Source of the DNA: Natrialba hulunbeirensis JCM 10989
GTDB lineage: Archaea > Halobacteriota > Halobacteria > Halobacteriales > Natrialbaceae
Direction of reading: 5' to 3'
Assembly (NCBI RefSeq): GCF_000337575.1
Contig: NZ_AOIM01000037.1
Span: forward strand, 1-64,000
Length of the DNA: 64,000 nucleotides
The position numbers and the translations under genes are program-made. The notes under the pieces were generated by a model. That model was not told the DNA's origin. It saw only the letters and a program-made list of their open reading frames with translations, and did not search any database. This document shows, one piece after another, positions 1,530-43,459 of the stretch. Numbering within the stretch: the first letter of the stretch is position 1; every line of letters begins with the position of its first letter.

Positions 1530-2945
1530 ATGAGTACACAGGAACAGTCGGCTGCCGGGTCGACGCCCGAGGCCGAAACCCGATCACCCGACGTGGTCGT
1601 CGTCGGCGCGGGGACATCGGGCTGTTACGCGGCGGCGACGATCGCGCAGGCGGGCTACGAGGCCGTCGTCCTCGAGCGCAAGACCGAGGAGGAGGCGGGC
1701 CACATCGCCTGCGGTGACGCTCTGAAGGGAGCCGACGCGTTCCCCGAGGCGATCCCGAAGTCCAAACTCGAACCCGCGTTCACCAACACCGGCGTCGATC
1801 ACGGCCGCTTCGAGATTCCACAGGAGGATACCGTTCTCGAGATTCCGATTCCCGGCGAACTCGCCGTCATCGACCGCTGGGAGTACGGCCGACGCATTAT
1901 CGAGGGAGCGGCGGAGGCGGGCGCGGACTTTCACTACGACACCGTCGTCCAGAACGTCACCCAGGAAGCCGACGACGGCCGCGTCACCGGCGTCGAAGCG
2001 ATCAGGAAGGGCCAGCCACTCACCTACGAGGCCGATCTCGTCATCGACGCCGCGGGCGCACTCTCGGTGCTGCAGGACAACGTCGACTTCTCGAACTCGA
2101 CGTTCGACACCAACGTCAACTACTCGCACTTCTGTTCGGCCTACCGCGAGGTCGTCCACGTCGAGGAACCGGTCGAGTGGTCGGACGCGCTCGTCTTCAA
2201 GCCGACCGAACGCGCTGCGGGCTACCTCTGGTACTTCCCGCGCACGGAAACCGAAATCAACGCGGGCCTCGGCTTCCAGATGACCGAGGAGCCGATGAAA
2301 CTCGTCGACGACCTCAAACGCGACCTCGAGAACCGCGCCGAGTTCGACGGTGCCGAGGTCGACGACAAACTCGGCGCTGCACTCCCGACTCGCCGACCGT
2401 ACGACTCGGCCGTCCACCCCGGCTATATGGCCGTCGGCGACGCGGCGGGTCACGTCAACCCCACCACCGGCGGCGGCATCGCCGGCGCAGCCTACGCCGG
2501 CAAGTACGCCGCCGAGCAGGCGATCGAGGGACTCGAGACGGGCGATGTCAGCGAGAAGGCTCTCTGGGAGTACAACCAGCGCGTGATGGACCACTTCGGC
2601 GCGCGCTACGCCGCACTCGACGTCTACAACATCCTCTCGACGGCCGTCGACGTCGACGATCTAATGGGCTTGCTCGCCGCGATGCCCGGCGAGAAGCTCG
2701 CCGAGGCTCTCTACGAGGGCAGTACCAGCGTCGGCCCGAAGCTCGCGTTCGAGAGCTTGCTCAACAGCCGTGGCCACTGGGGCACCATCTGGACGCTCTT
2801 CCAGACGAAACGCTGTGCCGACGACCTGCTCGACCTCTACGAACACTACCCAGAGCATCCCGCCGCACTCGAACACTGGCAGCAGCGCCGCGACGACGTG
2901 ATGGACGACGTCTACGAGGCGACCGGCGCAGATCCGAAGTACTAG
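1530..2945 (+). CDS. Geranylgeranyl reductase family flavoprotein
   Basis: This 471-residue FAD-dependent reductase is of the type that saturates the geranylgeranyl chains of archaeal ether lipids or prenyl precursors. The Rossmann motif GAGTSGCYAAA lies at about residues 27-37. A second FAD contact is YMAVGDAAGHVNPTTGGGI at about 300-318. A cysteine near residue 62 (HIACGDALKG) is typical of the family. The N-terminal 20 residues are a Ser/Glu-rich extension. A T-rich box, GTTTTCTTA, near 1499-1507 sits about 27 bases before the ATG and supports this start. The gene stands alone between divergent neighbours. Substrate (lipid, menaquinone or precursor) cannot be told from sequence. Confidence 0.9.
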   Translation: MSTQEQSAAGSTPEAETRSPDVVVVGAGTSGCYAAATIAQAGYEAVVLERKTEEEAGHIACGDALKGADAFPEAIPKSKLEPAFTNTGVDHGRFEIPQEDTVLEIPIPGELAVIDRWEYGRRIIEGAAEAGADFHYDTVVQNVTQEADDGRVTGVEAIRKGQPLTYEADLVIDAAGALSVLQDNVDFSNSTFDTNVNYSHFCSAYREVVHVEEPVEWSDALVFKPTERAAGYLWYFPRTETEINAGLGFQMTEEPMKLVDDLKRDLENRAEFDGAEVDDKLGAALPTRRPYDSAVHPGYMAVGDAAGHVNPTTGGGIAGAAYAGKYAAEQAIEGLETGDVSEKALWEYNQRVMDHFGARYAALDVYNILSTAVDVDDLMGLLAAMPGEKLAEALYEGSTSVGPKLAFESLLNSRGHWGTIWTLFQTKRCADDLLDLYEHYPEHPAALEHWQQRRDDVMDDVYEATGADPKY

Positions 2946-3223
2946 TCGCTCTCACTCATGAACACAACTCACTCACGAACAAGTGATCCACGCGAGGAAA
3001 ATATCGATCGTCGCGTCGGTAACCCGTCGTATCTACACCTTGTGACCAGAGGTACTTAAAGAAACGAGTGCCCTGTGGGTACGACCGAGATGGAGACGCT
3101 GTGGCCGCGAGGTGGACTCGAGTACCGCTGTCTCTCTCACACGATCCAGACACTGTCTTTCCACGCCGACCACTACCGCTGTCCGCTGGAGCCAGTCCGC
3201 CGTAGTCTGAGTCTAGTGCCCGT

Positions 3224-4471
3224 TCAGGCGTCGGACCGAAGCCGTTTGATCCGCTGTTCTGTTCGGGGATGTGTTCCAAAGATGGTGCGGGCGATGTATC
3301 GCCGCGGTCGGTCGAAGAACCGTCGTTCTTCCCACGGCGGCGGAACGACCGAGAACGCTATTGTCGACCGACGCTGCCGGAGGTCGCTCGAGGGCTGGTT
3401 CTCGAGTTCGGCGTCGAGTTTCTCCAGTGCGCTCACGAGGGCAGCCGGATCGCCAGTGATCGCGACGGCACCGCGGTCTGCGACGTACTCACGGTATCGA
3501 GCCACGACGATGACCGCCCAGCGACAGACACCGGCAACAATCGGTGCAACCGCCGCGAACACCCCGTGGAGGGGAGCCTGTCGAGACGATTCTTCATCGA
3601 CTGCCGCCATTATGAGCCTGACTTTCGCGACGGGGAGCGAGAGTACGGTTAGCATCGCTGCATCGCGGTTGCTGACGTGTGCGAGGACCGACTCGAGTTC
3701 GCGGTCTGTGAGTAGATCAACCAGTCCAGTCGAGACGATGATCGTCGACGTTTCGGGGCGAAGTCCAATCGTGGCCGCGAGTGGGACCCGCTTGCGGCCG
3801 ACCTTGACGGTCGGTGCCGGCAGATTCGCCTGACTCGCGAGTCGATTGACGCGCGCTTGCAGTTCCCTGGTATCGTTGTCGATGCCGATGTCGCTATCAG
3901 CACCATCGGGTAGTACGTCTTCGGTCGAGTCGATGATCTTGAGGTCGTCCTCGAGGTGCCGTTCGACGGAGCCACCAGCACCCAGTTCGTCGACGATGGT
4001 TCGTATCGTATAGTAGCTGGTCGCCACGACGCCAACGACGAGACCGATGGCACCGGCAGTCCGCACCGGTGTCCACGGCGACTGTGTCCAGACCAGCACA
4101 TAGCCGAGAAGCCAGCCGAGAAGAACGACGACCGCACCGCCGAGCACTCGTCTCGGAAGATACGTCTGTGGCTGTAGGAGGCCATGTGAAACTGTCTCGA
4201 CGGCGCTGGCCATCCCGTCGTGAGAAATCCGTCCGACGACGAGCGGCACGGGCATCACACGTCGATACACCCCTGCGATGACGTGCCAGGCTATAAACAC
4301 GGGAAGGCAGATGACGATCACCCAGAGGATCGACTCGAGTAGGAATACGATCACCAGCGCGACTCCTACGACTTCGAGGAAGAGCAAAGCGATCATGCCA
4401 CAGCTGGCGATGATACTGGCGACGGCCATCCGAAGCCAGAGCCCAAGTTGCAGTCGCGTCGGCAGCGTCAC
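3224..4471 (-). CDS. M48 (HtpX/Ste24-like) membrane protein with degenerate active site
   Basis: This 415-residue membrane protein has hydrophobic segments at about 15-70 and 108-160, followed by an M48-like domain from about 200. Family landmarks are present: ELESVLAH at 258-265, NRDAAM just after it, and the third-ligand motif RYREYVADRGA. The zinc motif itself is broken. Where active relatives read AHELxHVxNRD, this protein reads AHVSNRDAAM, so the catalytic Glu and one His are missing. An in-frame loss of 12 bases is the simplest explanation. The C-terminal THPRTEQRIKRL is normal for the family. It is probably a non-catalytic homologue. An intact HtpX gene lies at 15737-16549. Confidence 0.85.
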   Translation of the reverse strand: MTLPTRLQLGLWLRMAVASIIASCGMIALLFLEVVGVALVIVFLLESILWVIVICLPVFIAWHVIAGVYRRVMPVPLVVGRISHDGMASAVETVSHGLLQPQTYLPRRVLGGAVVVLLGWLLGYVLVWTQSPWTPVRTAGAIGLVVGVVATSYYTIRTIVDELGAGGSVERHLEDDLKIIDSTEDVLPDGADSDIGIDNDTRELQARVNRLASQANLPAPTVKVGRKRVPLAATIGLRPETSTIIVSTGLVDLLTDRELESVLAHVSNRDAAMLTVLSLPVAKVRLIMAAVDEESSRQAPLHGVFAAVAPIVAGVCRWAVIVVARYREYVADRGAVAITGDPAALVSALEKLDAELENQPSSDLRQRRSTIAFSVVPPPWEERRFFDRPRRYIARTIFGTHPRTEQRIKRLRSDA

Positions 4472-4636
4472 GCTTCACTCACCGTCGTGAGAGTGTGACG
4501 ACACCGTGTGTCAATACGGGATGACGATTCACTCCGAGACACTGTCAGCCATCCGTACAGAACCCGAGGACAAGTAGATACCGAAGTGATGGGTCGACGC
4601 CCCGAGTTGTCGGTTTTCAGGAGTCAACCGGCTTGT

Positions 4637-5908
4637 CTACCAGTCGCGGCTAATCTGCTCGACCGCGCCAGTGAGCACGTCGACGCCGTGCTGGAGACTC
4701 TCCTCGTCAACGTCGAACGTCGCGGTGTGGTGGCCGCCGGGGTGGTCCGTGCCGACGCCGATGTAGCAGGCAGAGCCGCCGTTGTCCTGGACTGTCTGCA
4801 TCAGGAAGGTCGCGTCCTCGCTGCCGCCGAGTTCGTCGCGCTCCATGACGTTTTCGACGCCTGCCGTTTCGCCCGCGACCTCGCTGACGATCGAAACGAG
4901 GTCCTGGTCGCTGGTCGCGCTCGGTGCCTCCGAACCGAGTTCGATCTCGACCTCGCAGTCGTGCATCTCGGCGGCGTTCCGAATCACTCGGCGCGCGTTC
5001 GAGCGCATGTACTCCATCAGTTCGGTCGTCTTGCCCCGAACTTCGGCCTCGATGTGGGCCTCCTCGGGGATGACGTTCGCCGCAGTGCCGCCCTCGACGA
5101 CACCGGCGTTGATCCGCGTCGGACCGTCGCTGTGTCGCGGGATGCTGTAGAGGTTCTGGACGGCCGTCGCCATCGCCTGGACGGCGTTGCGTCCCTCCTC
5201 GGGGTGGCCGCCCGCGTGGGACGGCGCACCGGTGAACGTCGCATCGAGGTGGGAAACCGCGAGGAAGCCGTCGATGCCGGCGACGATTTCGCCGGTCGGG
5301 TGATCGAGGCCGATATGAGCCGCGAGCAGCGCGTCGACGTCCTGGATGTGTTCGCTCGTCGCCATCGACTTCCCGCCGCCGATGACCTCCTCTGCGGGCT
5401 GGAAGAACACCTTGAACGTCCCCGAGAAGTCACTCTCTGCGATCGCTTCGAGGACGCCGACACCGATCGTCGCGTGGGCGTCGTGCCCGCAGGCATGCAT
5501 TGCGCCGTCGTGTTCCGAGCGGAAGCCCTCGGCGACGGGCGCGTGCTCGTCATCCTCGGATTCGGGCTGTGGCAGGCCGTCGATGTCGACCCGCAGGCCG
5601 ACCGTCGGTCCCTCGCCGCGTTCGAGAACCGCGACGGCTCCGGTGTAGCCGCCCTCGAGTTGGGAGAGAATCTCCTCATCGATGTCGTACTCGCTTGCTT
5701 GCTCGTACCACTCGGCGATTTCTGCGTCGTCGGGGACGGCTAATCGGTGTTCGCCGACGATGGCATCGGGGCCGATATGGAGTTCGTCCAGTTCGACGCG
5801 GGACTGGATTTCCTCGACGATGCGCGCGGTAGTGTAGAATTCGCGCCAGGCTGGTTCGGGTTTGCGGTGCAGGTCTCGACGGAGTGTGACGAGGTCGCTC
5901 GTGACCAT
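4637..5908 (-). CDS. M20 family amidohydrolase (AbgA/AbgB-like)
   Basis: This 423-residue zinc-dependent amidohydrolase has metal and catalytic motifs GLRVDIDGLP (about 104-113), MHACGHDAHATIGVG (about 136-150) and FFQPAEE (about 169-175). A further one is GGSEDATFL near residue 355. The change from LRADMDALP to LRVDIDGLP, and the early DLHRKPEPAWREF, resemble the aminobenzoyl-glutamate hydrolase branch more than the IAA-amino-acid hydrolase branch. It probably cleaves an N-acyl amino acid or aminobenzoyl-glutamate-like amide in the cytoplasm; the substrate is not determined. No neighbouring transporter or partner subunit is seen. Confidence 0.88.
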   Translation of the reverse strand: MVTSDLVTLRRDLHRKPEPAWREFYTTARIVEEIQSRVELDELHIGPDAIVGEHRLAVPDDAEIAEWYEQASEYDIDEEILSQLEGGYTGAVAVLERGEGPTVGLRVDIDGLPQPESEDDEHAPVAEGFRSEHDGAMHACGHDAHATIGVGVLEAIAESDFSGTFKVFFQPAEEVIGGGKSMATSEHIQDVDALLAAHIGLDHPTGEIVAGIDGFLAVSHLDATFTGAPSHAGGHPEEGRNAVQAMATAVQNLYSIPRHSDGPTRINAGVVEGGTAANVIPEEAHIEAEVRGKTTELMEYMRSNARRVIRNAAEMHDCEVEIELGSEAPSATSDQDLVSIVSEVAGETAGVENVMERDELGGSEDATFLMQTVQDNGGSACYIGVGTDHPGGHHTATFDVDEESLQHGVDVLTGAVEQISRDW

Positions 5909-11547: not shown

Positions 11548-11632
11548 GCAGGTTCGCGGGTGGGGTGGATGAGCGCGATGTCGAACCCAAACGGGTCGCT
11601 TAAGTCGCTCGACCGACGTAGCCCGGACAACG

Positions 11633-11941
11633 ATGGAATTCTGCGACGAATGCGGTTCGATGATGAAAGCCGACAATGGTCTGTGGGAGTGCGGAAGCTG
11701 TGGCTATACGAAACCCAAGGGTGACGCCGACGAGTACGTCGTCACGGACAGTCAGGAGGCGACCGAGGTTATCGAGTCCTCCGAGGAGACGTCGCTGCCC
11801 GAGACCGACGCGCACTGTCCCGAGTGTGGTCACGACCGCGCGTACTGGTATATGCAGCAGATCCGCTCGGCCGACGAGTCCGAGACGCGCTTTTTCATCT
11901 GTTCTGAGTGTGAGCACAAGTGGCGCGAAGACGATAACTAG
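11633..11941 (+). CDS. tfs: Transcription factor S (TFIIS/RPB9-like)
   Basis: This 102-residue archaeal cleavage factor rescues backtracked RNA polymerase by stimulating transcript cleavage. The N-terminal zinc ribbon has FCDECGSMM and WECGSCGY. The C-terminal ribbon has HCPECGHDRAYW and ICSECEHKW. The acidic loop RSADESET carries the Asp-Glu pair that reaches the polymerase active site. Length is normal for the family. A CTTAAG box near 11600 may be its TATA element. A short T5 run at 11950-11954, just after the stop, could end transcription. Confidence 0.95.
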   Translation: MEFCDECGSMMKADNGLWECGSCGYTKPKGDADEYVVTDSQEATEVIESSEETSLPETDAHCPECGHDRAYWYMQQIRSADESETRFFICSECEHKWREDDN

Positions 11942-12289
11942 AACCGAACTTTTTCTCTGTGTGCGGTCGCTTCGCGACCACACTCGGAAAAACTTCGATG
12001 AAAAGCACTCCTCTTTCCGTTCCGACTCGCTTCGCGAGTCTCCACATCAGTCGTCGGCCCGCGCGCTCACTCCGTTCACACGCGGTGACCGGTCGTGCTT
12101 ACGGGCTTTGCCCGTTCGCATACCCGCGGTTCTCGCCCTACAGGCTCCGAACCGCGCATCTCTCGGCTTCTTCAAACCACTCTCTCGCGGACACTTCTCT
12201 TGTGGACGGATCCACAAGGAATTCGTGATGGTCGGCGTCCACCCCCGGCTAATGCAGTTCGGAATGGGACATGAGGGAGAGACGGAGAA
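11942..12289. other. Hairpin-rich intergenic region without a gene
   Basis: This 348-base gap holds four short perfect inverted repeats and a 5S-rRNA-like patch near its right end. They are GGTCGC-TTC-GCGACC (11965-11979), GACTCGC-TTC-GCGAGTC (12024-12040), ACGGGC-TTT-GCCCGT (12101-12115) and CTTGTGGA-CGGA-TCCACAAG (12199-12218). The open frames here have poor codon character. Such TTC-looped palindromes recur in extragenic haloarchaeal DNA. Confidence 0.6.
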
Positions 12290-15736: not shown

Positions 15737-16549
15737 TCAGTGACGCAGCTTTTCGATACGCTTCTCGGTCGGCGGATGGCTCGCGAACAACTTCTGCATG
15801 AGGCTGCGGTCAGTGTTCAGAATACACAGCGCGCTGACCGTCTCGTCGACCTGCGATTCGCGGCCCTCGGCGCCGCGGGAAATCTTCTCGAGTGCACGGG
15901 CGAGCGGGTCGCCGGTGCCGATGTACTGTCGCGCGTCGTCGTCGGCGACGTACTCACGGTAGCGCGAGATGGCCATGACGAGGATCGTCGTGAGCAGCTG
16001 GGCGATCATCATCGCGGCGTAGGCGACGAGGAAGTTGTTGTCGTCGCGGACGAAGAAGAACACCGCGTAGCTGACGACCATCCCGACCGACTGGCCGAGG
16101 ATCATCGTGATGGTGTCGCGGTTGTTCAGGTGGGCGAGTTCGTGTGCGATGACGCCCTCGAGTTCGTCGCGCTCGAGGAGCTGGATGAGCTCGTTCGAAA
16201 CGCAGACGACGCCGGCACCCTTTCGGCCGGTCGCGAACGCGTTCGGAACGCCCATGTCCTGGACGACGAGCTTTGGCTTGTCGAGACCCATATCCCGCGA
16301 GAGGGATTCGGTCATCTGGTGAATCTCACGGTACTGGCCCTCGTTGGGCATTTCTTCGGTGCCCCGAAGCGCCATCCATTTACCGAACTTGTACTGGGCT
16401 GCGGGGAGGACGACGATGCTGAGTGCCAGTATCGGTAGGAGACCGATGCTGGGGAACATCGCCGAGAAGAACAGCGCAGCGGCGAAGTACAGGGCGAACA
16501 GGACGAACCCGACGAACGCCATTCGGAGTTTTAACTGTGTGTTTCGCAT
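15737..16549 (-). CDS. htpX: Membrane metalloprotease HtpX, M48 family
   Basis: This 270-residue membrane-bound zinc protease takes part in quality control of membrane proteins. Two N-terminal helices cover about 9-52. The zinc motif HELAH is at 136-140, and the third ligand is Glu199 in SRYREYVADDDA. Two more hydrophobic segments fall at about 151-195. The C-terminus has the family's SHPPTEKRIEKLR. The active site is complete, in contrast to the M48-like gene at 3224-4471. It appears to be a single gene. Confidence 0.95.
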   Translation of the reverse strand: MRNTQLKLRMAFVGFVLFALYFAAALFFSAMFPSIGLLPILALSIVVLPAAQYKFGKWMALRGTEEMPNEGQYREIHQMTESLSRDMGLDKPKLVVQDMGVPNAFATGRKGAGVVCVSNELIQLLERDELEGVIAHELAHLNNRDTITMILGQSVGMVVSYAVFFFVRDDNNFLVAYAAMMIAQLLTTILVMAISRYREYVADDDARQYIGTGDPLARALEKISRGAEGRESQVDETVSALCILNTDRSLMQKLFASHPPTEKRIEKLRH

Positions 16550-34846: not shown

Positions 34847-34928
34847 CAGTATCAGTATCAGTACGACGACCGATTATCACGAGAGACCGTTGTTCGTTCG
34901 GTTTCGCCGCGATGGCGTCGGTGTGTCG

Positions 34929-36323
34929 TCACCAGCCACCAGTCAGCTCTTTGCCTTCCTCGAGGCGCTCTTCGGCCTGTTCTTTCGCGTCCGCGAGCGC
35001 TTCCTCGATATCCGCGTCGCCGACGATGATCTGGTTCATCATGTCCGCGTAGTGGTAGCCACTCAGGGCGTACTGCTCCGCACCGGTGGTCGGGCTCTCG
35101 TCGACGTTCTGGCCGTACGTCGGTACGATTTCCTCCTGAATCTGCTGGTTGATCTCGAGGTGCTCGGGCCACTCCTGGAAGTAGTCCAGGTTTTCGTAGG
35201 CATCGGAGGTAACCACGTCGTCGTACGCCGGCAACAGCCGCATCGGCTCCTGTTCGAACAGCGATGCCGTCCGCTCGATCGAGTCCGCATAGAGCCACTC
35301 GATGAACTCGACGGCACCATCGGGGTCGTCACCGTCCTCGAACACCATGTAGCCGTTGCCGGTCGGCAACGTCATGTACGACTCTTCGACCGGAATGTCA
35401 TTTCGCGGCAGCGGGGCGACAGCCGTGTTCTCTGCGATGGGGTCGATACCTTCGGCCGCCGCCACGCCCGCCGCCCAGCCGTTGACGTGGTACATCTGAC
35501 CGATACGGCCCTGTACCCACTGTTCGAGGGAGGTGCCCCAGTTCAGATTCGATGGGTCAGGCGAGTACTGGGACAGTTCCTCGAGGTACTCCAGGGCCTC
35601 GATCGCTTCCTCCTCTGGGACCCAGACTTCGACGTCGCCGTCTTCCATCTGGTGGGTGTCGACGCCGTTCTGGTAGAGGAACATCCAGAACAGCTCACGG
35701 CTCTGGCCGACGACGCCGGCCTGCGTCGCAAACCCACGGGTGCTGTCGAACTCCTCGGCTTCGTCGATGGCTTCGGCGTTCTCGACGAGTTCGTCCCAGG
35801 TTTCGGGCACCTCGAGGCCGAGTGCCTCGTAGATGTCCTCGCGGTAGACGAGGACGTTGGTGTAGCCGCCGTGAGAGACGTGAAACGTATCGCCCTGGCT
35901 GACGACGCCCTCCTCGTCTTCGAAGGTTTCGACGTTGATGTCGCCGTTTACCTCCTCGACGGCTGCCAGGGTGTCGGACATGGGCTGGAGCATGCCCTGT
36001 GCCCAGATGTCTGCGGCCGTGTAGAACGTCTCGACGTGGATGTCTGGCGGATCGTTGGCCTGAATCAGGTTCATCAGCCGCTCTTCGCTGTCGCCCTGAA
36101 AGCCCGCATACTCCGGGTTGACAGTGTTGTCGGTCTCGTCTTGGAACGCCGGAATGAGGTCGTTCTCCCACCGATCTTGCCAGCCCTCCGTGCTGTAATC
36201 GGTGTAGAAGTGGATCTCGTCGGATCCGTTCTCACCACCGAGACACCCTGCGATCGCTGCTGCCGTGCCTGCACCCGCTGCCCCCAGTAGCTGGCGTCGG
36301 GTGTGTAGGTTCTCTCTGCTCAC
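34929..36323 (-). CDS. ABC transporter sugar-binding lipoprotein (CUT1 type)
   Basis: This 464-residue extracellular solute-binding protein starts at GTG 36323, VSRENLHTRRQLLGAAGAG. The twin-arginine signal ends in the lipobox AGCLGG, so it is Tat-exported and lipid-anchored. The mature part shows family 1 features: IHFYTDYSTEGWQDRWENDLIPAFQ, NLIQANDPPDIHV, and a long domain with GYTNVLVYREDIYEALGLEVPETWDELVENAEAID. A TATA box 26 bases before the GTG supports this start over the upstream TTG. It faces two permease genes and an ATPase gene across a 345-base divergent region. The sugar is unknown. Confidence 0.93.
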   Translation of the reverse strand: MSRENLHTRRQLLGAAGAGTAAAIAGCLGGENGSDEIHFYTDYSTEGWQDRWENDLIPAFQDETDNTVNPEYAGFQGDSEERLMNLIQANDPPDIHVETFYTAADIWAQGMLQPMSDTLAAVEEVNGDINVETFEDEEGVVSQGDTFHVSHGGYTNVLVYREDIYEALGLEVPETWDELVENAEAIDEAEEFDSTRGFATQAGVVGQSRELFWMFLYQNGVDTHQMEDGDVEVWVPEEEAIEALEYLEELSQYSPDPSNLNWGTSLEQWVQGRIGQMYHVNGWAAGVAAAEGIDPIAENTAVAPLPRNDIPVEESYMTLPTGNGYMVFEDGDDPDGAVEFIEWLYADSIERTASLFEQEPMRLLPAYDDVVTSDAYENLDYFQEWPEHLEINQQIQEEIVPTYGQNVDESPTTGAEQYALSGYHYADMMNQIIVGDADIEEALADAKEQAEERLEEGKELTGGW

Positions 36324-36324
36324 G

Positions 36325-36337
36325 TGGTATGATACCA
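36325..36337. promoter_or_regulatory. Palindrome at the binding-protein start, candidate operator
   Basis: TGGTAT-G-ATACCA is a perfect 6-base inverted repeat ending one base before the GTG start and lying between it and the TATA box. A related half, AATACCA, occurs near 36639-36645 upstream of the permease gene. It would suit a sugar-responsive repressor; this is inference. Confidence 0.5.
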
Positions 36338-36343
36338 AGCTTC

Positions 36344-36353
36344 AATATATTAT
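36344..36353 (-). promoter_or_regulatory. TATA box of the sugar-binding protein gene
   Basis: ATAATATATT on the minus strand is centred 26 bases before the GTG at 36323, indicating a leaderless transcript starting at or next to the palindrome. Confidence 0.6.
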
Positions 36354-36668
36354 TCTTTGGGTTAGCAGAGTAACGGATGGATCGGCCTCAAGCTAACAAG
36401 ATAGACTAATTTGGAGGTACTCAGGAACGACGTTTGTCTATTCTGGAGTCTCGCAAAAGACTGGTAGAAACCGTAGCGTTCGTTTTCGGTATCTGCTGTG
36501 GCGGCTCCGCCACGTTCCTAAATCTTCCACCGTTCCACTCATACACTATTTTGATTTCCAACCTTTCTCTAATACTCGATTGTGCTTCCAGAATTCGCAA
36601 TCTGGGTCGAAACGATAACCAACCCGTCGAAGCGTTTAATACCAACAGGGCAGATGGTTAGGTAACAC
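36354..36668. other. AT-richer divergent region between binding protein and permeases
   Basis: No gene is supported. The stretch is much lower in GC than its surroundings. It holds a GTGGCGG/CGCCAC hairpin at 36498-36513 and TTTAATACC near 36635, about 30 bases before the permease ATG, a probable TATA box. Confidence 0.45.
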
Positions 36669-37613
36669 ATGGCAAGTGAAACGGTCGAATCGACAGCGGC
36701 CACCGACCGCCGGTCGGTTACCGAACGGCTTGGCCTCGATTCGGAGGCGATTCGAGGCTGGCTGACGGTGCTACCGGTGATCCTGTTGTACCTGTTCGTG
36801 GCCGTCACACCGATCGCGTTCGCGTTCTACGCCTCACTGTTCGAGATTCCACTCCTGGCGCCGGAGTGGACATTCACGGGGTTCTCGAACTACGTCGAGG
36901 TGTTGAACATGGGGTCGTTCTGGTCGGCGCTCTGGCTTGGTGGGCTGTTTATGGTAGGCAGCACCGTGTTACAGCTACTCGTCGGCCTCTGGATTGCTCT
37001 CGTATTGAACAAGATCAGCTACGGGCAGCGGTTCCTGACTGCTGTCGCGTTTACGGCGTATCTCGTCCCGACGGTCATCGTCGTCCTCATCGCGCTGTTC
37101 ATGTTCGACGTCGAGATCGGTGTTCTCCACATCGCCGGTTCGAACCTCGGACTATGGGGTGAGCGGACGTTCGCGCTTGGCGATCAGACGTGGGCGATGC
37201 CGCTCGTCGTCCTCATCGGCTCCTGGAAGTTCTCGATCTTCGTGACCATCTTCACGCTCGCGCAACTGCGTGCGATTCCGGAACGGTTCTACGAGGCCGC
37301 GAAGATCTGCGGTGCCTCCCGCTGGGAGATGTTCCGAGACATCACCCTCCCGCGGATCATGGGCGTGCTCCTGATCGCCGTCCTGCTGCGGGCGATCTTC
37401 ATGTTCAACAAATTCGACATCATCTGGATGCTGACCGAAGGCGGGCCCGCGGGCGCGACGACGACGCTCCCGATCCTCGCCTACCGGACCGCCTTCCTGG
37501 AGAACAGTTACGGACTCGCGAACGCGATGGCCGTGATCATGTTCATCTTCCTCGCAATCGGGGCCTACTGCTACTTCCGGGCGTTCAACCCGGCCAAGGA
37601 GGTGGACACATGA
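36669..37613 (+). CDS. Sugar ABC transporter permease (MalF/UgpA-like)
   Basis: This 314-residue membrane subunit has six predicted membrane segments after a polar N-terminus of about 35 residues. The cytoplasmic EAA loop, which contacts the ATPase, reads FYEAAKICGASRWEMFRDITLPRI. CUT1 permeases of this size import mono- or oligosaccharides or glycerol phosphates. It overlaps the second permease gene by four bases (ATGA), so the pair is co-translated. GTTTAATACC upstream is a likely promoter element. Confidence 0.93.
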   Translation: MASETVESTAATDRRSVTERLGLDSEAIRGWLTVLPVILLYLFVAVTPIAFAFYASLFEIPLLAPEWTFTGFSNYVEVLNMGSFWSALWLGGLFMVGSTVLQLLVGLWIALVLNKISYGQRFLTAVAFTAYLVPTVIVVLIALFMFDVEIGVLHIAGSNLGLWGERTFALGDQTWAMPLVVLIGSWKFSIFVTIFTLAQLRAIPERFYEAAKICGASRWEMFRDITLPRIMGVLLIAVLLRAIFMFNKFDIIWMLTEGGPAGATTTLPILAYRTAFLENSYGLANAMAVIMFIFLAIGAYCYFRAFNPAKEVDT

Positions 37614-38476
37614 GCGCACCGACCGAGAGCGAGCAGCGTCTCTCCTACGAGACGCGCGACCGACTCTATCAGGTCGCGCTGTACGGCAGCGCTGCGCTGT
37701 TTACGTTCATCATCCTGTTCCCGATCTACTGGATGGTCCAGAACGCGTTCACCGACAGCCAGGCGGTCATCACCGAGTTCGCCTGGTTCCCCTCGCCGGA
37801 GACGGTGACACTCGAGAACTTCAGCGTTCTGACTGCCGGTGCGGTACCGACGTACGTCATCAATACGATCGTCGTCACCATCGGAACGATCGTGCTGGTC
37901 GTTGCGGTGTCGCTCGTCGCGGGCTACGGCATGGCGCGGTTCCGGTTCAAGTACAAGGAGTCGTTCGCGCAGTTCCTACTGCTCGGCTACATGTTCAGTC
38001 CGATCGTGCTCGGCCTACCGCTGTACCTCATCTGGTCGGAAACCGGCCTGTTGAACGCACGGATCGGCCTCGTCATCGCCCTGTCGGCGATCTCGATGCC
38101 GTTTGCGGTCTGGCTCATGTGGAAGTACATCCAGACGATTCCCGAATCGATGGAGGAGAGCGCCTGGATCGCCGGGGCCTCGCGCTGGCGGACGTTCTGG
38201 GACGTGGTCGTTCCACAGACGAAGCCCGCAATCGTCGCCTGCGCGCTGTTCGCGTTCGCTATCGCGTGGAACGACTTCACGTTCGCTCAGATCCTGTTGC
38301 CGAGCCAGGACTCGACGACGTTCGCGCCGGGAATCATGCGCCTCATCGACCAGGGCGGGTACACCTCCTGGGGCGACATCATGGCGGTCTCGTTCCTGAT
38401 GACGATTCCGCCACTGCTGTTCGCGTACTTCCTGCAGGAGTACCTGCTGAAGGGATTCGAAGTTCGCACGCGCTGA
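37610..38476 (+). CDS. Sugar ABC transporter permease (MalG/UgpE-like)
   Basis: This 288-residue second permease has six membrane segments, with the EAA loop SMEESAWIAGASRWRTFWDVVVPQTKP. The first segment, QVALYGSAALFTFIILFPIYWMV, and the conserved QNAFTD after it are typical of the MalG branch. The start at 37610 overlaps the upstream stop. The large open frame further upstream is an off-frame shadow of the first permease. Confidence 0.93.
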   Translation: MSAPTESEQRLSYETRDRLYQVALYGSAALFTFIILFPIYWMVQNAFTDSQAVITEFAWFPSPETVTLENFSVLTAGAVPTYVINTIVVTIGTIVLVVAVSLVAGYGMARFRFKYKESFAQFLLLGYMFSPIVLGLPLYLIWSETGLLNARIGLVIALSAISMPFAVWLMWKYIQTIPESMEESAWIAGASRWRTFWDVVVPQTKPAIVACALFAFAIAWNDFTFAQILLPSQDSTTFAPGIMRLIDQGGYTSWGDIMAVSFLMTIPPLLFAYFLQEYLLKGFEVRTR

Positions 38477-38532
38477 CTGCTGACACCGACACAATCACAA
38501 CGAAACTACCCACGAAACTCACTTACGAGACA

Positions 38533-39621
38533 ATGACAGTCAATATCTCCAACATGACCCGGGTGTTCGATGCCCCGGACGGACGTATCGTTGCGGTCGA
38601 CGACCTCTCGCTCACCATCGACGATGGCGAGTTCCTCACCCTCGTCGGCCCCTCCGGCTGTGGAAAGACGACGACACTTCGCTGCGTCGCCGGCCTCGAC
38701 ACACCCACCTCCGGAACCATCACCGTCGACGACCGCGACGTGACGAACCTGCCACCACAGGAACGCGACGTGGCCCTACTCTTTCAAGACATTGCGCTCT
38801 ACCCGCACATGACCGTCCGCGAGAACATGGAGTACGGCCTGAAAATCGCCGGCGTTCCGGAGGACGAACGACGCGAAAGCATCGAGGAAGCCGCCGACCT
38901 CCTGCAGATTGGCGACCAGCTCGACAAGATGCCTGCCTCGCTCTCCGGCGGCCAGCAACAGCGGGTCGCACTCGGCCGCTCGCTCGTCCGTGACCCCTCC
39001 GTCTTCCTCTTCGACGAACCGATGAGCGATCTAGACGCCAAACTCAAGCGCGAACTCCGCCCGGTCGTCCAGCGCATCACCGACGAAATCGGCTGTCCCG
39101 TCCTCTACGTTACCCACGACCAGGAAGAGGCGATGACCATGTCCGATAGAGTCGCCATCATGGACGGCGGCGAACTCCAGCAGGCCGGTCCACCGAAAGA
39201 AGTCTACGACGAACCCACAAACGACTTCGTCGGCGAATTCATCGGCCAGCCGGCCATGGAGTTCTTCGACGCTCACGTCGAATCCGCAAACGGCACCGCG
39301 GCTGTCGCCCTCGGCGGCCACACCATCTCCCTCGACGCCAGCGCGGACCAACTCGAGGGCTACGTCGACCGCGACGTTCGCGTCGGCGTTCGCCCCCAGC
39401 ATATCACCGTCGCAGACGCGACAGAGGGAATCGAAGCGGAGCACGTCCTGGACGAACCACTCGGCGACGAGACCCACAGCCTGTTCGAGACCGAGTACGG
39501 GAACGTCACCGTCGTCACGCACGCGGATTTCGACGGTGACGACGGCGGCGAGTACGGACTGGTACTCGAACGCTCGGAGACACAACTGTTCGATCCGGCG
39601 TCTGGCGTTCGCATTTTCTAG
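38533..39621 (+). CDS. Sugar ABC transporter ATP-binding protein (MalK/UgpC-like)
   Basis: This 362-residue ATPase has Walker A GPSGCGKTT near residue 39, the signature LSGGQQQR and Walker B SVFLFDEPMSDLD. The switch His is in YVTHDQEEAMTM. Residues about 240-362 form the regulatory TOBE-like domain (DRDVRVGVRPQHITVADA) characteristic of MalK/UgpC. It is 56 bases after the second permease in the same direction and completes the transporter with 34929-39621. The start at 38533 gives MTVNISNMTRVF; the longer frame is shadow. Confidence 0.94.
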   Translation: MTVNISNMTRVFDAPDGRIVAVDDLSLTIDDGEFLTLVGPSGCGKTTTLRCVAGLDTPTSGTITVDDRDVTNLPPQERDVALLFQDIALYPHMTVRENMEYGLKIAGVPEDERRESIEEAADLLQIGDQLDKMPASLSGGQQQRVALGRSLVRDPSVFLFDEPMSDLDAKLKRELRPVVQRITDEIGCPVLYVTHDQEEAMTMSDRVAIMDGGELQQAGPPKEVYDEPTNDFVGEFIGQPAMEFFDAHVESANGTAAVALGGHTISLDASADQLEGYVDRDVRVGVRPQHITVADATEGIEAEHVLDEPLGDETHSLFETEYGNVTVVTHADFDGDDGGEYGLVLERSETQLFDPASGVRIF

Positions 39622-40640: not shown

Positions 40641-41681
40641 TCAGAGTTCGCTATCCGGGCGCACGACAACTTTGCCAAAGCCTTCCCGCCCCTCAATAAT
40701 TTCGTGGGCGCGGGCAGTCTGACTCATCGGCAGTACCTCGCGGATCGCGGGTGTGAACGTGCCGTCCCAGACGAGTTCCATGACGTCGTCGACCTGTCCG
40801 GGCGAGCCCATCGTTGAGCCGATGATCTGGAGCTGGTTCCAGAAGATGCGCGGGATGTCGGTCTCTGGGTTACCGCCGGCCGTGCCGCCGCAGGTGACCA
40901 GGCGGCCGTTCTTCGCGAGGCTCTTGATCGAATCCCGCCAGGTGCCAGCGCCGATGTAGTCGACGACGACATCGACGCCACGGTTGCCGGTTTCGCTGCG
41001 GACCCACTCCGCGAAGTTCTGCTCCTCGTAGTTGACCACGTGGTCCGCGCCGTGTTCGCGGGCGTACTGGAGTTTGTCCTCGGTGCTGCCCGTCGCGTAT
41101 ACCTCCGCACCGGCGTAGTCTGCAATCTGCAGAGCAGCGTGGCCGACGCCGCCGCTCGCACCGAGGACGAGTACCTTCTCGCCGGCCTCGATGTCCGCGC
41201 GGTCGATCAGCATTCGCCAGGCGGTCTGGAAGACGAGCGAGGACGCCCCCGCAGTGATCCAGTCGACGTGTTCGGGGACGGGGATCAGGTTATCCTCGGG
41301 AACGGTGGCATACTCCGAGTGGACGCCGGTCACGTGCTCGCCGAGGAGATGGAAGTTCACGCACAGCGTGGGGTCGCCGCTGCGGCAGAACTCGCAGTGA
41401 CCGCAGTTGACGCCCGCGGTCACCGCGACGCGGTCGCCGGGTTCGAAGCGGGAGACATCCTCGCCGACGGCCTCGACGACACCCGCAGCGTCGCTCCCGG
41501 GGACGTGTGGGAGCTCGAGATCGAGCGTCGGCAGGCCGCGCCGAACCCACACGTCGAGGTGGTTGAGCGCGCCGGCTTTGACGTCGACGAGCACGTCGTT
41601 GCGGCCCACCTGGGGGTCGGGGTACTCGCCGTACTCGATGCCGTCGGTCCCGCCGTGTGCGGTGATCTTGACTGCCTGCAT
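40641..41681 (-). CDS. Zinc-type alcohol dehydrogenase / quinone reductase family
   Basis: This 346-residue medium-chain dehydrogenase has GALNHLDVWVRRGLP, HVPGSDAAGVVEAVGEDVSRFEPGDRV and NCGHCEFCRSGDPTLC. The last holds the four structural-zinc Cys residues. The nucleotide motif is VLVLGASGGVGHAALQIADYAGAEVYAT. The catalytic-zinc Cys of classical enzymes is Asn in LNHLDVW, which points to the quinone-reductase-like branch. The start at 41681 (MQAVKITAHGGTDGIEYGE) is standard. The substrate is not determined. Confidence 0.9.
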   Translation of the reverse strand: MQAVKITAHGGTDGIEYGEYPDPQVGRNDVLVDVKAGALNHLDVWVRRGLPTLDLELPHVPGSDAAGVVEAVGEDVSRFEPGDRVAVTAGVNCGHCEFCRSGDPTLCVNFHLLGEHVTGVHSEYATVPEDNLIPVPEHVDWITAGASSLVFQTAWRMLIDRADIEAGEKVLVLGASGGVGHAALQIADYAGAEVYATGSTEDKLQYAREHGADHVVNYEEQNFAEWVRSETGNRGVDVVVDYIGAGTWRDSIKSLAKNGRLVTCGGTAGGNPETDIPRIFWNQLQIIGSTMGSPGQVDDVMELVWDGTFTPAIREVLPMSQTARAHEIIEGREGFGKVVVRPDSEL

Positions 41682-41853
41682 AGGTACAGATAGTTCGAAA
41701 CAGTGGCATAACAGTTGTGAACCTGATGGGATGTCCCTAATTCCCACACACCTATCGAGAACGATCGCTTCACAGTACCGATCTGTTCGATACAGCCTCC
41801 ACCTGTGACGATGGTCGTTCGACGCGGGCACAGACGCTCGCCACCGACTGCAG

Positions 41854-41889
41854 ACACACCGTACACACCGTACACACCGTACACACCGT
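41854..41889. repeat. Tandem 9-base repeat, 4 copies, upstream of moaB
   Basis: ACACACCGT is repeated four times without interruption. It lies about 35 bases upstream of the moaB TATA-like element and outside any supported gene. Confidence 0.9.
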
Positions 41890-41951
41890 CACCGCCGCCT
41901 CATCACACCGACAAGAACCAGTGTTTTACCCACCGGCGGTCAATGCGGCCC

Positions 41952-42662
41952 ATGAACGAGTCGAGCGAGTCACCGTCAGAGTCATCACCAGCCGATACAG
42001 CCGCCGAATCGACGACTGAGGTGACCGAGGCAACCGAGACCCCAAACACGCTCGGCATCGGACTCGTCACCGTCGCCGACGACCGGACACTCGAGTCCGA
42101 CGCCGCTGGCGAAGCGCTCATGTCGACGTTCACCGAGGCGAGCCACGAGGTAGTGATGCGCGAGCACGTCGGCCGCGGACACGACACCGTTCAGTCGATC
42201 GTCTCGCGGGTGATCGACCGCGATGACGTAGACGTGGTCGTCACGGCAGGAGCGACGAGTATCGAACCGAACGATATCACGATCGAGGCGGTTCAGCCCC
42301 TCATTGAAAAGCCGCTGCCCACGTTCAGTGAGCTGTTTACCCACCTTTCCTACGAGGCACACGGCAGCCGCGCTGTCGGCGCACGGACGATCGGCGGCGT
42401 CACCGAGGAGACGCTTATTTTCTGTCTTCCCGGTAACGCGGACGCGGCCGAACTCGCGGCGACGGAGATTCTTGTACCAGAGGGCCCGCATCTCGTCGAA
42501 CTCGCACGAGACGGGAACGACGAGGGCGATGAGGACGACGAGGGTGACGAGGGCAACGAGGACGGTCCGGCAGACACCGACGAAACCGCTGCTGAGTCGA
42601 ACGAATCATCAACTACTGAATCGGATGCGACGGCCGGACCGAACGGTGGTGAGGACGTATGA
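41952..42662 (+). CDS. moaB: MoaB/MogA family molybdenum cofactor protein with acidic extensions
   Basis: This 236-residue protein has a MoaB core (about 37-180). LGIGLVTVADDRTLESDAAGE comes first, then VVVTAGATSIEPNDITIEAVQPLI. The latter is a variant of the GGTG molybdopterin-binding loop, with Ala in place of one Gly. ELFTHLSYEAHGSRAVGARTIGGV and IFCLPGNADAAEL follow. It adenylates or binds molybdopterin in cofactor assembly. The first 30 residues are Ser/Glu/Thr-rich, and the last 55 are a long acidic tail. GTTTTACC about 26 bases before ATG 41952 supports this start; ATG 41943 is an alternative. It overlaps the next gene by four bases. Confidence 0.88.
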   Translation: MNESSESPSESSPADTAAESTTEVTEATETPNTLGIGLVTVADDRTLESDAAGEALMSTFTEASHEVVMREHVGRGHDTVQSIVSRVIDRDDVDVVVTAGATSIEPNDITIEAVQPLIEKPLPTFSELFTHLSYEAHGSRAVGARTIGGVTEETLIFCLPGNADAAELAATEILVPEGPHLVELARDGNDEGDEDDEGDEGNEDGPADTDETAAESNESSTTESDATAGPNGGEDV

Positions 42663-43459
42663 GCGACGAACAGGTCACCGGTGACGATGAACGAGTGCAG
42701 TCGACACCGGCCGACGGCGACCGATCGAAAGACACGATCCGCGAACGCGTCTGGGACGAACTCGAGGACAGCGGCGTCGCACGGTTCCCGTTTCCACCCC
42801 ACGGCCGGATTCCGAACTTCGAGGCCGCGAAATCCGCCGCCGAGCGCCTGGCAGCCCAGCCGGAGTGGGAGCACGCGACGACGATCAAGGCGAACCCTGA
42901 CGCGCCACAGCTCCCGGTTCGCCGACGCGCGCTGCGCGACGGCAAAACCGTGTACATGGCAGTGCCACGGCTGCGCGACGAGGAATGTTTCCTGAAACTC
43001 GATCCCGACGAACTCGACGACTACGACGCGGCCACCACGGTTTCCGGCTCGTCGACACACGGCGAGAAGGTCGGCCCCGAGGCGGTCGACGAAATCGATC
43101 TGATCGTCTCCGGAAGCGTCGGTGTTCGTGCCGACCCCACGTTCGATCCCGCAGACGGTGGCCGCATCGGTAAAGGCGAAGGCTACAGCGACCTCGAGTT
43201 CGCTGTGCTCTTCGAATTCGGACTCGTCGACGCGGATACGCCCGTCGCGACGACGGTCCACGAGCGCCAACTGCTGACGGCCACCGAGGCCGGGACACTC
43301 GAGTTGGACGACCACGACGTGCCGATGGAGCTGGTCGTCACGCCAGAGCGAGTGCTGCGACCAGGTGGTGGCGAGAAACCGGACGGGCTCGACTGGGAGG
43401 CGCTCTCCGAAGAGCGGCTTGCGGAGATTCCGGTCCTCGAGCGCGTCCGGTCGTCGTGA
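42659..43459 (+). CDS. 5-Formyltetrahydrofolate cyclo-ligase family protein
   Basis: This 266-residue protein shows the MTHFS signature: GRIGKGEGYSDLEFAVLFEFG, the substrate and ATP loop, and the preceding IDLIVSGSVGVRADPTFDPADG. The N-terminal ERVWDELEDSGVARFPFPPHGRIPN fits the archaeal branch. The enzyme converts 5-formyl-THF to 5,10-methenyl-THF using ATP. In an archaeon the exact C1 carrier may differ. It overlaps moaB (ATGA), suggesting co-expression of folate and molybdopterin functions. Confidence 0.9.
   Translation: MSDEQVTGDDERVQSTPADGDRSKDTIRERVWDELEDSGVARFPFPPHGRIPNFEAAKSAAERLAAQPEWEHATTIKANPDAPQLPVRRRALRDGKTVYMAVPRLRDEECFLKLDPDELDDYDAATTVSGSSTHGEKVGPEAVDEIDLIVSGSVGVRADPTFDPADGGRIGKGEGYSDLEFAVLFEFGLVDADTPVATTVHERQLLTATEAGTLELDDHDVPMELVVTPERVLRPGGGEKPDGLDWEALSEERLAEIPVLERVRSS

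Follow-up and report, generated by a model that had tools for sequence, protein, structure and literature searches.

The window analysed here is the whole 64,000-nucleotide stretch of Natrialba hulunbeirensis JCM 10989 (contig NZ_AOIM01000037.1, positions 1 to 64,000). Near its beginning, a gene for an M48-type membrane protein lies between an FAD-dependent geranylgeranyl-reductase-like gene and an M20-type amidohydrolase-like gene (Table 1). Residues 200–413 of the protein match PF01435 (Peptidase_M48) in Pfam with 71.3 bits; this exceeds the gathering cut-off of 20.3 and thus places the protein in peptidase family M48 by homology. The protein fails the HtpX equivalog test of NCBIfam, with an NF002669 score of 126.9 bits for a curated cut-off of 341. 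The intact sister protein of N. chahannaoensis is also under this cut-off (144.4 bits), and the genome's own HtpX-like protein is likewise below the NCBIfam HtpX equivalog cut-offs. In M48 chemistry a glutamate activates water and the zinc is bound by two histidines and one glutamate. The glutamate of the REYVAD motif is presumably this third zinc ligand in the protein encoded at 3224–4471. AlphaFold2 models built from a three-sequence alignment had mean pLDDT values of 45 and 49, too low for use.

Table 1. Features of the M48 locus and of the separate HtpX-like gene (window coordinates).
Feature	Position	Strand	Basis and remarks
FAD-dependent geranylgeranyl-reductase-like gene	1530..2945	plus	Named by sequence inspection; 3' end contains one tract edge
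Low-divergence tract common to the window and N. chahannaoensis (1.4–2.8%)	about 2800..4860		Divergence map
M48-family membrane metalloprotease homologue, almost certainly a catalytically dead allele	3224..4471	minus	ORF, 415 aa, GTG start
REYVAD motif, intact	about 3476..3493	minus	Same residues in relatives; invariant in the alignment with HtpX-like P0002
10-bp repeat CTCGCACACG, the only copy left	3676..3685	minus	Alignment with L009
Linker repeat of GACATC units (DIGID); N. chahannaoensis has 12 bp more	about 3878..3892	minus	Alignment
M20-type amidohydrolase-like gene	4637..5908	minus	Named by sequence inspection; 3' end contains the other tract edge
Separate HtpX-like M48 protease, intact HELAH	15737..16549	minus	Sequence and profile matches

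The genome contains eight M48 genes, and the other seven all have HExxH. At the slot studied here it has a single M48 gene, where several Natrialbaceae, e.g. G098, G037, G124 and G034, have a tandem pair of an approximately 420-residue protein and a longer one (L098, L099, L056, L058, L060). Elsewhere in the window (34890–39620) lies a sugar-type ABC transporter cluster with a binding protein, two permeases and an ATPase, named by sequence inspection; it is missing from the syntenic position in N. chahannaoensis, where the flanking genes are close together (G044:C99, about 11572–12217).

At the place of the HExxH motif, the translated protein reads VLAHVSNRD (ELESVLAHVSNRDAAML), and no HExxH was found anywhere in the whole 415-residue sequence. 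The nearest relative, from N. chahannaoensis JCM 10990 (L009 5001–6272; protein 96% identical), has the intact motif VLAHELAHVSNRD (longer stretch ELESVLAHELAHVSNRDAAML), and the M48 gene on contig C99 of G044 is equally intact. The nucleotide alignment between the window and N. chahannaoensis shows a single 12-bp gap at the motif. The DNA of the intact allele reads CTCGCACACGAACTCGCACACGTC at this place, in which the 10-bp CTCGCACACG occurs twice without mismatch and with a spacing of 12 bp (L009 5799–5808 and 5811–5820). Absent from the window are one repeat copy plus 2 bp, which make up the 12 bp that encode four residues of LAHELAH; gap placements within the repeat are equivalent, so that the deletion point is ambiguous. 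The undeleted allele therefore has a repeat pair around the lost core and the window a single copy, which makes a repeat-mediated 12-bp deletion the direct explanation. Few intact homologues (14 of 122) carry, across the motif, a perfect repeat of 10 bp or more spaced by 12 bp, and the ancestral allele here was therefore among the more slip-prone.

The sequence-only reading had described a deleted HExxH motif at this site, with an in-frame loss of 12 bases that takes out the catalytic glutamate and one zinc histidine and leaves REYVAD and the remaining frame intact. The ORF, the Pfam match and the sister alignment confirm this in both position and description, as they do the length and consequence of the loss, and HELAH is indeed read in the HtpX gene that it had listed as intact. 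Its statement that there is no other gap in the flanking alignment does not quite hold, as the GACATC repeat of the linker shows a second 12-bp length difference; this is a second repeat-length change inside the same M48 gene. The probable cause of the loss, the 10-bp direct repeat behind LAH-E-LAH, and the recent interspecies exchange of the whole gene escaped this reading. Because the catalytic glutamate and one zinc histidine are removed, the window protein can almost certainly not act as a protease.

We searched 394 Halobacteria genomes with a DNA pattern that describes the motif after deletion and requires a preceding Val or Ile and excludes a preceding Glu. This pattern matches seven genomes, and only the match in the window lies in an M48 ORF; the other six were read individually and none falls inside one. 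The corresponding intact pattern matches all 394 genomes, often several times (about 950 sites as a rough sum). HExxH is intact in 122 of the 126 non-redundant M48 ORFs sampled from Natrialbaceae, and the four without it are the window gene and fragments of the frameshifted L137 (G012) and L140 (G053, two frames). The family search likewise gave only intact motifs among those full-length relatives in which this region was readable. Given these intact homologues and the single M48 match of the deleted pattern, the deletion is therefore not a chance observation. The two frameshifted genes, L137 (G012:C2 604800–608000) and L140 (G053:C60 8500–10800), are relatives of the window M48 gene; the G053 remnant reads HEFARL, with the second zinc histidine also gone. 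As judged from these genomes, motif loss is rare, yet outright decay of this M48 group occurs elsewhere in the family.

The M48 genes of the window and N. chahannaoensis differ with a dS of 0.030, compared with about 0.26–0.33 for the genes on either side. The dS values of neighbouring genes are mostly 0.2–0.4 and the pooled pS of the window's genes is 0.24; in the M48 gene, ten synonymous differences were observed where about 81 were expected. Synonymous divergence is thus far below that of the flanks, and beyond the shared tract (Table 1) overall divergence rises to 6–11%, with sharp edges inside both flanking genes. The low dS, together with a low-divergence tract whose edges lie in the neighbours, points to recent homologous exchange: by this sequence evidence, a tract of about 2 kb with the whole M48 gene is a recent exchange between the two species by homologous recombination.

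Other alleles occupy the same slot within the genus. The M20-like protein is 99% identical to that of the window in G045 and 98% identical in G046 (same genus), and the M48 protein between the same neighbours is 48.6% identical in G045 and about 48% identical in G046. In a tree of 30 homologues, the window and G044 are separate from G045 and G046, which group with G109 from another genus, and a clade comprising G000 (the window's genome), G044, G045 and G046 is rejected in the M48 tree (AU p 3e-38). A third M48 allele type is present at the slot in G042, G043 and G047 (same genus). The three divergent allele types and the rejected clade suggest that xenologous allelic replacement at the slot probably occurred more than once. 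The slot itself (window 2800–4860; G044:C99 about 41000–43100; L048, L049) holds at least three M48 allele types between flanks that are 85–99% identical. We consider it very unlikely that diversifying selection drives allele swapping at this locus in Natrialbaceae, with the dead allele as a selected state and not a decayed one; if this were true, the selection might come from the protease acting on, or being exploited via, a variable surface or viral protein.

We may wonder at this stage whether the deleted protein has retained a role. The dN/dS ratio between the window and N. chahannaoensis M48 alleles is 0.59, compared with about 0.1 for the neighbours. Relaxed selection was considered on this basis and dropped, as intact pairs of similar age give about 0.4 (0.38–0.41; 0.39 for G042/G047 and 0.40 for G075/G064), which is not significantly different from 0.59 given the few changes (Fisher p about 0.5). 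The raised ratio is explained mostly by short divergence times and a fast-evolving family. The outgroup-polarized changes, which are few in number, comprise about four on the window lineage (G19S, L47S, A95S and I375V) and two on the N. chahannaoensis lineage (V68M and S361L). The paralogue at 3224–4471 evolves fast and is apparently dispensable in its clade. A motif loss conserved across lineages was not found among the 394 Halobacteria genomes, in which this one is unique.

A dead protein kept by selection for a chaperone-like, scaffolding or substrate-binding membrane role would fit an ORF that is intact besides the deletion, and it has a precedent in the protease-dead BepA (PMC8423444). 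We nevertheless regard such retention as unlikely, since the deletion occurs in one genome only, the ratio of 0.59 gives no hint of more purifying selection than in equally old intact pairs (ω about 0.4; Fisher p about 0.5), and most of the polarized changes on the window lineage, for example A95S and I375V, fall at positions conserved in outgroups. The window ORF has no other lesion, though a purely decaying gene would gain some over time; this is uninformative because the allele is young. Of the two suggestions made by the sequence-only reading, a recent loss agrees with the intact sister allele at a dS of 0.03, whereas the retained non-catalytic role finds no support, with one genome only and a dN/dS that is not distinguishable from that of equally old intact pairs. 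It had further proposed that an intact motif in raw reads or in close strains would reveal an assembly or strain artefact. At the species level an intact relative does exist, namely N. chahannaoensis; its motif shows the deletion to be derived and does not make it an artefact.

An assembly or consensus artefact, in which the true sequence has two repeat copies that were collapsed in the draft, could be suspected because the lost segment corresponds exactly to one unit of a short tandem repeat, in a draft assembly of 48 contigs. Yet the full repeat spans only 22 bp, far below a typical read length, which makes a collapse quite unlikely; moreover, the flanking sequence is unique and the reading frame is preserved. 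The deleted sequence may also come from a variant in the culture or from polyploid chromosome copies that are not all alike. A reversible or population-level switch of the active site (phase variation) through the 12-bp repeat is suggested because the motif is itself a tandem repeat and losing one unit leaves the frame unchanged. It is highly improbable, as re-duplication from a single copy is not easy and no second genome with the contraction was found among the 394. No three-copy expansion of the motif reading as M48 was found in 125 family genomes; two matches to a three-copy pattern (G039 and G106) were discarded, as the matched bases give no M48 HELAHELAH motif. Finally, one motif histidine and the REYVAD glutamate are left, and with a different set of ligands the deleted protein might still work as a metallopeptidase, active or regulated. 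This is barely conceivable, since the catalytic glutamate and the second histidine are both lost and the protein has no HExxH elsewhere.

We therefore favour, with a probability of about 0.82, an accessory M48 membrane metalloprotease homologue that recently lost its activity through a repeat-mediated deletion. The ancestral allele would have been as in N. chahannaoensis, reading LAH-E-LAH-V with the two perfect repeat copies, and one 12-bp unit would have been lost by slipped-strand mispairing or microhomology-mediated loss with the frame kept. The protein retains its membrane part together with the M48 fold region and the glutamate of REYVAD, and its HExxH helix is left with one histidine where there were two and with no catalytic glutamate; it is expected from the missing residues neither to hold zinc properly nor to cleave peptides. 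The loss was likely tolerated because seven intact M48 paralogues remain and because the inactivated copy evolves fast and seems dispensable in its clade. The allele itself was exchanged between species of Natrialba through homologous recombination over about 2 kb.

In our reading, this is a real, derived and lineage-specific inactivation of one apparently dispensable M48 paralogue, located within an allele that was itself exchanged recently; it is an ordinary event with a neat mutational cause. Here a catalytic motif provides, in a clean natural example, its own target for mutation: the coding sequence of LAH-E-LAH can be a near-perfect tandem repeat of 12 bp, from which a single slip takes out exactly the active site while the frame is preserved. 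Annotation pipelines are likely to label the deleted protein as an M48 protease despite its expected inactivity. In addition, M48 genes of this group move between species within an unchanged gene order, and a syntenic position is therefore no guarantee of the same allele. Neither the M48 deletion nor the allele exchange changes the general understanding of these processes.

Compared with HtpX-like membrane metalloproteases (PF01435; NCBIfam HtpX; solved domain 3CQB), the window protein shares the M48 domain, an N-terminal hydrophobic region, the REYVAD third-ligand motif and the NRD after the helix, but lacks four residues of LAHELAH and hence HExxH. The protease-dead M48 relative BepA E137Q retains a weakened chaperone-like activity (PMC8423444). 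The window protein resembles it as an M48-type protein without the catalytic glutamate; however, BepA E137Q is an engineered mutant, whereas the loss described here is natural and confined to one genome. Haloarchaeal strains commonly differ by deletions at direct repeats of 4–20 bp (PMC3119063), and slippage of archaeal replicative polymerases at direct repeats has been seen in vitro (PMC4134008). As in the deletions reported for Haloquadratum walsbyi and Halobacterium salinarum (PMC3119063), a repeat pair in one lineage corresponds to a single copy in the other, with the intervening bases lost. The M48 case differs in that a core of just 2 bp separates the 10-bp copies, which is close to or under the length cut-off of that study, and in that the deletion hits a catalytic motif exactly. 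Loci are known to be replaced by homologous recombination between haloarchaeal genera as well as between species, among which this is frequent (review PMC4500145). The Natrialba slot shows the same picture of a divergent allele in a syntenic background with edges inside the neighbouring genes, but here a single genus has three or more divergent M48 alleles at one slot.
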